Below the pieces are notes generated by a model. It searched no databases, was not told where the DNA came from, and saw nothing but the letters and a program-made list of their open reading frames with translations. The position numbers and the translations under genes are program-made. From the NCBI GenBank assembly GCA_018057455.1, contig JAGPDT010000028.1:1-39016 (forward strand): a stretch of 39,016 nucleotides of DNA, in the 5' to 3' direction. Every line of letters starts with the position of its first letter. The stretch's first letter is position 1. Origin of the DNA: Flavobacteriales bacterium. GTDB taxonomy: Bacteria; Bacteroidota; Bacteroidia; Flavobacteriales_F; PHOS-HE28. This document shows, piece after piece, positions 25,616 through 34,175 of the stretch.

Positions 25616-25894
25616 ATGGGACTGAACAAAGCAGAACTGATCGAATCCATCGCCGCTGAGGCGAAGATCTCCAAGGCTGACGCCAAGCGTGCCCTGGACG
25701 CCTTCGTGAACAACACCACGAAGGCCCTGAAAAAAGGTGACCGCGTGGCCCTCGTTGGCTTCGGCACCTTCAGCATCACCAAGCGTGCCGCCCGCAAAGG
25801 ACGCAACCCCCAAACCGGCAAAGAGATCAAGATCGCTGCCAAGAAAGTGGTGAAGTTCAAGGCCGGTGCGGACCTGAGCAAGAAAGTGAAGTAA
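25616..25894 (+). CDS. DNA-binding protein HU
   Basis: A small dimeric nucleoid protein that bends DNA. It has 92 residues starting [16 protein letters not shown]. The conserved [18 protein letters not shown] segment leads into the DNA-contacting arm ([11 protein letters not shown]), and the last helix is [13 protein letters not shown] consensus promoter lies upstream and a strong terminator follows at 25912-25945, so it is monocistronic and probably highly expressed. The symbol (hup or similar) is left open because the paralog cannot be told. Confidence 0.97.
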
Positions 25895-27044: not shown

Positions 27045-27290
27045 ATGGGTAAAGGTGATATGAAGACGAAGAAAGGCAAGCGTACCGCCGGCAGCAAAGG
27101 CAAGGCCCGTCCTGCCAAGCGCACGGTAGCCACTGCCAAGAAGGCCGCCGCCAAGAAGGCTGCGCCGAAGAAGAAGGCCGCTGCCAAGAAGGCCGCGCCG
27201 AAGAAGAAGGCTGCCGCCAAGAAGGCTGCCGCCAAGAAGGCTGCGCCGAAGAAGGCCGCCGCCAAGAAGGCTGTTGCCAAGAAGAAGTAA
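27045..27290 (+). CDS. bTHX-like ribosomal protein with long Ala/Lys repeat tail
   Basis: The first 25 residues, MGKGDMKTKKGKRTAGSKGK then ARPAK, resemble the small 30S protein bTHX (Thx) of Bacteroidota, which starts MGKGD-KTK-GK and is normally about 25-40 residues. The remaining 56 residues are a repeat of AAKK, APKKK and AAAKK units like the C-terminal tail of histone H1 and some bacterial nucleoid proteins. The total is 81 residues, almost entirely Lys/Ala/Pro. The N-terminus suggests ribosome binding; the tail suggests RNA or DNA binding. Slippage within the repeat can easily change its length. A promoter -7 box precedes it and a strong terminator follows. Confidence 0.85.
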   Translation: MGKGDMKTKKGKRTAGSKGKARPAKRTVATAKKAAAKKAAPKKKAAAKKAAPKKKAAAKKAAAKKAAPKKAAAKKAVAKKK

Positions 27291-31328: not shown

Positions 31329-31342
31329 GGTCCTTGCCTCTG

Positions 31343-31416
31343 TAGCGCGGGAGAGACTTGAACTCTCGACCTCAGGATTATGAATCCTGCGCTCTAACCA
31401 GCTGAGCTACCGCGCC
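31343..31416 (-). tRNA. tRNA-Met (CAT), elongator type
   Basis: A 74-base cloverleaf on the minus strand. The acceptor stem is GGCGCGG with CCGCGCT (a G-U pair at position 1-72). The D arm contains AGCTCAGCTGGTTAGAGC, the anticodon stem-loop is CAGGA-TTCATAA-TCCTG with anticodon CAT, and the T arm is GAGAG-TTCAAGT-CTCTC. CCA is not encoded. It pairs at 1-72, unlike initiator tRNA, so it is an elongator; a tRNA-Ile with lysidine-modified CAT is possible but less likely. Confidence 0.95.
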
Positions 31417-31532: not shown

Positions 31533-32660
31533 ATGGCGAGACCTACCAAAAGATCCCGTACAACTACCTCCGTATCCGCCAAGGCTGGAACGCGTGGCCC
31601 ATCCGGCCGCACCAAGGCAGCTTCCGGCAAGTCCCCGGCGCGGAAAACCGCCAAGCGCAAGGTGGCGGTGAAGGGCGGCGCCAAGCGGAAAGCCGCCGCC
31701 GCCAAGCCCGCCCCGGCGAAGAAGGCAGCTCTGCGGGCGTCCACCGCCGCCAAACCCCAACCGGGGAACAAGGCCAAGCTGAACTCCACGAAGACCGGAA
31801 CAAAGCGGCCCGGCCCCAAGCCGTCCGCCAAGGGCAAACTCCGCGGCGGTACGGCAGCCAAACCGGGCCAGGTGAAAAAGACCGCGGTGAAAAAAACCAC
31901 CGGCGCAACCAAACCGGCATTCAGGAAGATCGCCACGCCCAAGGTCAGCAAGCGCGCACTGCCCGGCCAGCCGGTGAAGACCAAGGGAGCCAAGAAAGGC
32001 CCTGCGGTGAAGAAGGTACCGCGGCCCGTGGCCGGAAAGAAGATGGCGACAAAGCAGGCGAAACCACCTGCCAAGGCCGCACCGCCCTCCCGGGTGAAAA
32101 CCGCCGTGAAGAAGTTGGTGCGCCCCGCTCCAAGCTCCACCAAGACCAGCCCGGCAAAGCCCTCCGGCACCCGCACTCCCGTGCACAAGCCACCGGTGGC
32201 GCCCCTGGTACCGGTGGCCGCAACAGCCCCAACCGACGCCGTGACCGAAGCTCCGAGGCCATCGGTGATGCCCGCCCTGAAGCAGCGCTTCCAACTGGAG
32301 TTCTACCTGAACGCCTCGCTGGCATCGCTCTTTGAGCTGATCAGCACGCCCAGTGGGTTCAGTGAATGGTTCTGCGATGATGTGAACGTGAGCGATAACC
32401 TGTACACCTTCAAATGGGGCGATGATTCTGAATCGGCCCTGTGCATCGCCCAGCACCATGGCGAGTACATGCGCTTCCGCTGGTCCGAGGACCTGGAGGA
32501 AGACCCGGGCGCGTTCTTTGAACTGCGGATCCGTGTGGACGGCATGACCAATGAGACCTGCCTGGTGGTGACCGACCATGCCTGGCCGAAGGACCTGGAA
32601 GAAGAGCGCGCCTTGTGGGAGGCCCAGATCCATACACTGATCCGTGTGCTCGGGGCGTAA
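31533..32660 (+). CDS. START-like (AHSA1-type) protein with histone H1-like basic tail
   Basis: A protein of 375 residues in two parts. Residues about 1-245 are low-complexity and very basic (Lys, Ala, Pro, Arg, Thr), with KKAA/PAKK-type motifs like the histone H1 tail. From about residue 248 it is the Bacteroidota START-like domain: LKQRFQLEFYLNASLASLFE, STPSGFSEWFCDDVNV, YMRFRWSEDLEEDPGAFFEL and CLVVTDHAWPKDLEEERALW. The domain alone, about 128 residues, is the usual size of the flavobacterial homologue, so the tail is an N-terminal addition. The fold binds hydrophobic ligands or chaperones; the tail suggests nucleic acid binding. The next gene (lptF/G) is 66 bases downstream. Confidence 0.88.
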   Translation: MARPTKRSRTTTSVSAKAGTRGPSGRTKAASGKSPARKTAKRKVAVKGGAKRKAAAAKPAPAKKAALRASTAAKPQPGNKAKLNSTKTGTKRPGPKPSAKGKLRGGTAAKPGQVKKTAVKKTTGATKPAFRKIATPKVSKRALPGQPVKTKGAKKGPAVKKVPRPVAGKKMATKQAKPPAKAAPPSRVKTAVKKLVRPAPSSTKTSPAKPSGTRTPVHKPPVAPLVPVAATAPTDAVTEAPRPSVMPALKQRFQLEFYLNASLASLFELISTPSGFSEWFCDDVNVSDNLYTFKWGDDSESALCIAQHHGEYMRFRWSEDLEEDPGAFFELRIRVDGMTNETCLVVTDHAWPKDLEEERALWEAQIHTLIRVLGA

Positions 32661-32726
32661 CACCCGGAAGTGGCCCACGCCGTCCGCCGCGCGGCCACCG
32701 GATCGGGCGATCTTTGCGCCCCGCCC

Positions 32727-34175
32727 ATGAAGCGATTGCACCGCATGATCATCGGGGCCTACTTGGGGCCCTTGTTCATCACGTTCCTGGTCGTGCTCTT
32801 CCTCTTCAGCATGCAATGGCTGTGGAAATGGCTGGAAGACCTCATCGGCAAGGGACTGCCGTGGGATGTGCTGGCCAAGCTCATCGCCTTTGCCACTTCC
32901 GCCTTCGTGCCCGCCGTCTTGCCCTTGGCCGTGCTGCTCAGTTCCATCATGACCATGGGGGGGCTGGGTGAACGCTCCGAGCTCACCCCCATGCGCTCCG
33001 CAGGGCTGGGCTTGTTCAAGATCCTGGCCCCCTTGCTGCTCTTTGTGGTGGGCTTGGCGGGGTTCTCCTTCTACTTCAGCAACAACGTGTTGCCGGTGGC
33101 CAACCTGAAGTTCCAGAGCCTCTTGTGGGATGTGACCCGCACCAAGCCCGCCCTGAACCTGCGCCCGGGCGTGTTCCACGGCGGGCTGGACGGCTTCTCC
33201 ATCCGCGTGGGTGAAAAGGACGACCGCACCGGTGAGCTGCGCGACGTACTGATCTACGACCACCGAAAGCCGTTCCAGGCCAACAAGACCGTGATCCGTG
33301 CCGAAAAGGGGACCATGGGCCGCAGCACCGACAACCGCTTTCTGGTGCTGGTGCTGGAAAACGGCCGGATCTACGACGAACAAAGCGGGGCCAATACACG
33401 TGCCTCCAACGAAAGCCCTTTGCTGCGCGGCAGGTTCCAACGCGAGGAGATCCACATCGACCTCTCCGGCCTGGGCATGAAACGCACCGATGAGGACCTC
33501 TTCAAAGACCACTACAAAATGCTCACCTTGGGGCAACTGCACTACGCGCAGGACAGCCTGCAACGCCGCCTTCGGGAACGGGTGGCCGACCAGGAAGGCA
33601 ACATGCGCAACACCTTGTTGCCCTTGCGAAGCGACAGCGGCGAGCACCGCCACGATCCCCGTGGGGCACCGCCCGGCGGCATCCGCACGGACCCCGGCGC
33701 CCAAGCGGTGCTTTCCACCATGGCCATGGACAAGGCCCGCGCCGCCATCAACGAACTGGAGCACATGGCCAACGAACGCGCGGACCGCGGCGGGCAGATC
33801 GCCAAATTCCAGGTGGAATGGCACCGCAAGCTCATGCTTGCCTTCGCCTGCGTGGTGTTCTTCTTCATCGGCGCTCCCTTGGGCGCCATTGTGCGCAAGG
33901 GCGGCATGGGCCTGCCGGCGGTGATCTCCATCGTCTTCTTCCTGGTCTTCCACATCATCAGCTATTCCACCGAGCAGATGGTGAAGGCCGGCACCCTCCC
34001 GGCGTGGCCCGGCATGTGGATCAGCACCTTGGTGCTGCTCCCCATCGGCATCTTCATCACCTGGAAGGCGGCATCCGACAGCCCGCTTTTCGACCGCGAT
34101 GCGTATGATCGCGCTTGGAGCCGGATCCGTTCCACCCGCAAGCCACGCCATGCGCATCCTCCAACTGTGCAATAA
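32727..34175 (+). CDS. LptF/LptG family lipopolysaccharide export permease
   Basis: A subunit of the LptB2FG transporter that lifts LPS from the inner membrane to the Lpt bridge. The protein is 482 residues from the ATG at 32727 (MKRLHRMIIGAYLGPLFITF). Three membrane helices precede a long periplasmic beta-jellyroll (about 130-370), and three follow it (near FACVVFFFIGAPLGAIVRKG and PAVISIVFFLVFHIISYSTE). The periplasmic part is longer than usual and ends in a helical stretch. Whether it is LptF or LptG is not clear. The next gene overlaps its end by 26 bases, and two glycosyltransferases follow. Confidence 0.92.
   Translation: MKRLHRMIIGAYLGPLFITFLVVLFLFSMQWLWKWLEDLIGKGLPWDVLAKLIAFATSAFVPAVLPLAVLLSSIMTMGGLGERSELTPMRSAGLGLFKILAPLLLFVVGLAGFSFYFSNNVLPVANLKFQSLLWDVTRTKPALNLRPGVFHGGLDGFSIRVGEKDDRTGELRDVLIYDHRKPFQANKTVIRAEKGTMGRSTDNRFLVLVLENGRIYDEQSGANTRASNESPLLRGRFQREEIHIDLSGLGMKRTDEDLFKDHYKMLTLGQLHYAQDSLQRRLRERVADQEGNMRNTLLPLRSDSGEHRHDPRGAPPGGIRTDPGAQAVLSTMAMDKARAAINELEHMANERADRGGQIAKFQVEWHRKLMLAFACVVFFFIGAPLGAIVRKGGMGLPAVISIVFFLVFHIISYSTEQMVKAGTLPAWPGMWISTLVLLPIGIFITWKAASDSPLFDRDAYDRAWSRIRSTRKPRHAHPPTVQ

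Follow-up and report, generated by a model that had tools for sequence, protein, structure and literature searches.

The window analysed here, the whole 39,016-nucleotide stretch of contig JAGPDT010000028.1 from a Flavobacteriales bacterium, contains at positions 31533-32660 of the plus strand an open reading frame that runs uninterrupted from ATG to stop and encodes 375 residues. As an earlier note on this DNA had described, the product consists of a long Lys/Ala/Pro N-terminus followed by a START-like domain. This gene, its two neighbours and the other genes of the window that are discussed here are listed in Table 1.

Table 1. Features of the window discussed in the text
Feature	Positions	Strand	Basis
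HU-family DNA-binding protein (context only)	25622..25894 (about)	+	PF00216, E 1.1e-32
Ribosomal protein bTHX core, aa 1-25 of the second tailed gene	27045..27119	+	TIGR04560
KKAA/APKK repeat tail of bTHX, with stop codon	27120..27290	+	Tandem repeats; tails on relatives' bTHX
tRNA-Met(CAT), elongator-like, divergent upstream neighbour	31342..31416	-	ARAGORN
N-terminal Lys/Ala/Pro tail, aa 1-244, predicted disordered	31533..32264	+	Composition; AF2 full-length model
START_2 domain (Pfam aa 250-375) with stop codon, Aha1/SRPBCC-type fold	32265..32660	+	PF19569; AF2; PDB matches
LptF/LptG-like permease, directly downstream	32709..34175	+	PF03739, E 3.9e-73

A START_2 domain behind a polycationic tail

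Pfam START_2 (PF19569) matched aa 250-375 with an E-value of 1.9e-30 and 105.8 bits, above the curated cut-off of 23.6, and covered profile positions 4-126 of 126. When the complete protein was searched against Pfam and NCBIfam up to an E-value of 1, START_2 was the sole Pfam match and NCBIfam gave none. The AF2 model of the domain has a pLDDT of 93.3, and its first-ranked Foldseek match was BfR322 of Bacteroides fragilis (PDB 2LIO), a member of the same domain family that phmmer also detected (E 2.8e-17). The solved 2LIO chain has 136 residues, with the match beginning at its residue 3, and therefore, unlike the protein described here, lacks a long tail. An Aha1/SRPBCC (START-like) fold is further indicated by the superposition on the Aha1-type protein 2M89 (Z 15.7, rmsd 2.3, 123 aligned residues). 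Many START/SRPBCC folds hold hydrophobic ligands. The modelled domain may itself accommodate such a ligand or interact with another protein, the fold alone giving no function.

The preceding 244 residues form a low-complexity Lys/Ala/Pro/Thr stretch (K 19%, R 7%, A 19%, P 14%, D+E about 1%) with a net charge of approximately +63. In the full-length AF2 model, 10-residue blocks over aa 1-240 have mean pLDDT values of 46-58, and secondary structure is absent. A net charge of at least 20 per 60-residue window was reached by only two of 275 genes, mechanically picked and in part spurious, from the window and 20 genome stretches, two of which had been selected for containing pattern hits; these two were the START_2 gene and the gene at 27045. 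The tail resembles that of histone H1; the protein gave no match to HC2 (PF07382) or to NF038053, and the only sub-cut-off hits to H1-like families fell on bTHX. The exact KPAA motif is absent from aa 1-244, so that the likeness to KPAA repeat arrays is one of composition only, and a homology search with the tail as query returned only the tail itself.

The earlier note had pointed to two genes of the window with the same type of basic repeat, and to HU lying between the islands. Both products are strongly basic, but the gene at 27045 encodes ribosomal protein bTHX (TIGR04560, 31 bits against a cut-off of 26) and not a histone, which weakens the argument drawn from the pair, and the HU gene lies upstream of both. 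TIGR04560 was found in 53 of 58 relatives. The bTHX tail is built of tandem repeats of 15/33-bp units at 27135-27284; tailed bTHX is widespread in the class, the number of repeats varying among relatives.

The proposal that unrelated proteins receive H1-like tails in this lineage is supported, since seven protein types bear basic tails in this one genome: START_2, bTHX, bL21, DNA topoisomerase I (C-terminal tail; identified by reading its sequence rather than by a family search), a DksA/TraR-like protein (190-residue N-terminal tail), a VOC/glyoxalase-like protein and a biotin-carboxylase-like protein. The list comes from pattern searches together with the stretch sample and is not exhaustive, as the patterns miss the START_2 tail. 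A search of the same genome with NF038053 recovered bTHX and one weak hit, and nothing more. In the biotin-carboxylase-like protein (NF005096; locus L257, 4427-5968, minus strand) the basic N-terminal arm is short.

Conservation of the tail and selection on its charge

The START domain was present in 105 of 118 related genomes, 44 of them of the same genus. Tailless close relatives, an upstream frameshift or a different start, which had been named as grounds for doubting the tail, were not encountered: it is present in frame in 43 of the 44 same-genus loci, the remaining one (L126) breaking off where its contig ends, and wherever the 5' end of a genus locus can be read, the tail is there. The tail is therefore not the product of a frameshift, a wrong start or an assembly artefact. 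The start methionine and a MAK/MAR-like beginning recur among relatives.

In the 14 closest pairs, one of them identical, the domains are 93-98% identical, and the tails, outside that one pair, 45-70%. Over these pairs, dN is approximately 0.007-0.05 in the domain versus 0.2-0.6 in the tail, and dN/dS approximately 0.03 versus 0.4. The third codon positions of the plus frame are the most variable, which, together with a dN/dS below 1, rules out that the gene is an antisense or shadow frame of an overlapping 921-residue minus-strand ORF. Judged from these comparisons, the domain is strictly held and the tail is held in composition only.

What is retained in the tail was analysed in 67 complete tails, after exclusion of eight that were mislabelled, had no ATG or ran into the end of a contig or locus (L156, L146, L032, L128, L141, L030, L132 and L136). 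Net charge was 52 +/- 13 over a GC content of 0.31-0.68, with a slight residual dependence on GC (rho 0.24, p 0.05), in tails whose length ranged from 52 to 372 residues. The A+P fraction tracks GC (rho 0.84), while K decreases and R increases with it. The average K/(K+R) was 0.88 in the tails versus 0.43 in their own domains, and within the genus 0.83 versus 0.26, indicating that lysine is retained against the GC trend. Additionally, Arg and Glu each lie one A-to-G transition from a Lys codon, and among single-base differences at Lys codons, scored over 15 disjoint pairs within the genus, the partner was Arg 11 times and Glu once (two-sided p 0.006). The near-constant charge at all GC contents, the tracking of GC by Ala and Pro and the preference for Lys over Arg argue for selection on charge and not on sequence. 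The property maintained is thus positive charge, preferably as lysine, along with the predicted unstructured state.

Distribution across the class

The claim that the START-like protein normally consists of the domain alone is true of many lineages. None of the 64 named loci outside the genus, which are those nearest by domain sequence, carries the tail, and of 296 genomes drawn evenly from the phylum 74 had the domain, with an open frame longer than 200 residues only in the genome of the window. Since so many lineages do without the tail, the basic job of the domain would not require it. The claim fails for 13 further families of the class (f4, f6, f7, f15, f18, f20, f27, f28, f37, f41, f44, f45 and f110), in which tails were confirmed on loci fetched from a kin-weighted sample of 383 genomes and from the 118-genome set; f27 and f28 include both tailed and tailless forms. 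Tailed START_2 is not special to this lineage.

On the domain tree, with L156 labelled tailless and L146, L032, L128 and L141 tailed, the tail state needs seven changes over 74 rows, versus a mean of 24.1 after shuffling, and the starred branches force only two. A single tailed clade is not rejected by the AU test (p 0.068). By the tree, the tail is strongly grouped, and it may have arisen or been lost once or more than once.

Neither neighbour accounts for this distribution. The divergent tRNA-Met accompanies the gene at 39 of 41 loci in the genus, at 14 of 28 tailed loci elsewhere and at 61 of 94 loci without a tail; an LptG-like gene is adjacent at 43 of 43, 2 of 30 and 16 of 100 loci of these three groups. 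Because tailed and tailless loci share these neighbours, the locus looks orthologous in both forms. The tRNA-Met(CAT)/START_2 divergent pair is itself long-lived, occurring in many families, tailed or tailless.

N-terminal H1-like tails of about 95-292 residues, a range that holds for most tailed cases, also occur on DksA/TraR-like proteins of the genus and of many families of the class (L268, 592-1569, minus strand; L277-L336). In the genus, all 30 fetched loci carry one, including a locus cut by a contig end (74 residues, KR fraction 0.19). In same-class genomes outside the genus, a tailed DksA-like protein was found in 14 of 15 genomes with tailed START_2 versus 10 of 45 with tailless START_2 (raw p 1e-6; 2x2 counts compiled by hand). 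In this count G078 and G051, with weak or short DksA tails, were scored as untailed (scoring them as tailed gives 12 of 45), as was G081, the long frame of which belongs to the upstream gene. The tree offers only one (starred branches) to six (all branches) independent pairs, so the co-occurrence is not significant after phylogeny and may reflect shared ancestry.

Known lysine-rich arms and possible roles of the tail

Tails of this kind are known from other bacteria. AlgP (AlgR3) and PhaF of Pseudomonas likewise join a folded domain to a long disordered Lys/Ala/Pro arm, with charges of +55 and +35, and are thought to reach the nucleoid; AlgP is described as a DNA-binding protein whose KPAA tail is needed for granule positioning (PMC9239181). 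Their arm is C-terminal and made of KPAA repeats, whereas that of START_2 is N-terminal and placed on an Aha1/START fold. HupB and HupS, DNA-binding proteins with lysine-repeat tails (PMC11229371), are likewise cytosolic and bear a disordered tail rich in lysine doublets, but their folded part is the DNA-binding HU domain itself. Lys-rich regions of L21 and low-complexity regions of topoisomerase 1 are reported (PMC6821194). In this genome both proteins have tails of the same type, placed at the C-terminus and on partners whose nucleic-acid target is known, in contrast to the N-terminal tail of START_2. A search of the open literature found nothing on START_2 tails. Among the literature matches listed, there was nothing relevant for DksA/H1 tails, nucleoid-associated lysine tails or 2LIO/PF19569, and nothing bearing on the START_2 gene for bTHX tails or for SRPBCC/AHSA1 in Bacteroidetes. 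As far as the literature was searched, the kind of tail and the domain are each known and their combination is unreported.

The reading we favour, to which we give about an even chance, is by analogy with these arms that the N-terminal polycation serves as a nucleic-acid tether. An Aha1/START-fold protein would have acquired an intrinsically disordered lysine polycation of about 200 residues, which would attach to a polyanion regardless of its sequence, chromosomal DNA being the likeliest and RNA following closely. It would keep the conserved cytosolic domain at the nucleoid, much as AlgP and PhaF would keep their cargo domains there through KPAA tails. The retention of the tail in the genus and the constancy of its lysine-based charge support this reading. 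DNA is judged somewhat likelier than RNA because the similarly charged lysine-rich arms of AlgP, PhaF and the HU relatives either bind DNA or extend to the nucleoid, and because the majority of tailed partners act on nucleic acid (topoisomerase I, the DksA-like RNA-polymerase factor, bTHX and bL21). The VOC and biotin-carboxylase-like partners, without a nucleic-acid role, speak against a tether, as do the many tailless lineages. On this analogy, nucleoid association is plausible.

For bTHX and bL21, being ribosomal proteins, RNA is an equally likely target, and they also provide the best in-genome matches to the START_2 tail. Together with the tRNA-Met divergent from the gene in most loci and the Lys-rich low-complexity regions reported to be common in L21 (PMC6821194), they lend some appeal to an anchoring of the tail on rRNA or nascent mRNP that would keep the domain near translating ribosomes. 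We regard this as possible but doubtful, as the tRNA is equally near tailless loci and so does not explain the tail, and TopA and the DksA-like protein suggest the nucleoid. That the tail is a low-complexity expansion which the protein tolerates and which contributes little function by itself would fit its fast drift and its wide range of lengths; it is an unlikely explanation given the near-constant charge across GC, the preference for Lys over Arg, the avoidance of Lys-to-Glu changes and the presence of the tail in every genus locus with a readable 5' end. The constant downstream LptG-like gene of the genus, along with the hydrophobic ligands that START/SRPBCC folds often carry, might point to lipid handling, with the tail bound to acidic phospholipid or to the envelope on its cytosolic side, while the domain would act with the permease. 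This is rather improbable, since outside the genus the permease is rarely adjacent, tail and neighbour being uncoupled, and ribosomal proteins bear the same tails. Binding to inorganic polyphosphate and localisation to its granules, on which KPAA-tailed AlgP is reported to be enriched (PMC9239181), is very unlikely, because PPK1, the kinase searched for, had no match in the genome of the window (99.4% complete) or in the tailed G002 and G018 (99-100% complete), and was found in 92 of 118 genomes irrespective of the tail.

A PPK1 match was present in 38 of 45 genus genomes, the near-complete G000 (the genome of the window), G002 and G018 having none. The PPK1 open frames are mostly about 880-1270 residues long in the genus versus about 670-730 in most other families. 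In all seven fetched genus loci (L347-L353, from G039, G010, G041, G023, G004, G027 and G017), PPK1 is extended at its N-terminus by about 200 residues that bear HD-phosphohydrolase-like motifs, resembling an HD-PPK1 fusion; the one tested matched Pfam HD (E 2.6e-8).

Returning to the nucleic-acid tether, a wider and decidedly speculative extension would be a lineage-wide "tail code", in which unrelated core proteins of many families, above all the DksA-like RNA-polymerase factor and START_2, became polycation-tethered, chromatin-like components concentrated on the nucleoid, where the START fold would act as a bound ligand sensor or co-chaperone. Within one bacterial class, polycationic H1-like arms have repeatedly been joined to conserved proteins of unrelated kinds, their charge remaining constant while the sequence drifts. 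If these arms tether their proteins to the nucleoid, they would represent a simple bacterial route to concentrate enzymes and regulators on the chromosome, for which orthologues with and without the tail at one chromosomal location provide a natural test.
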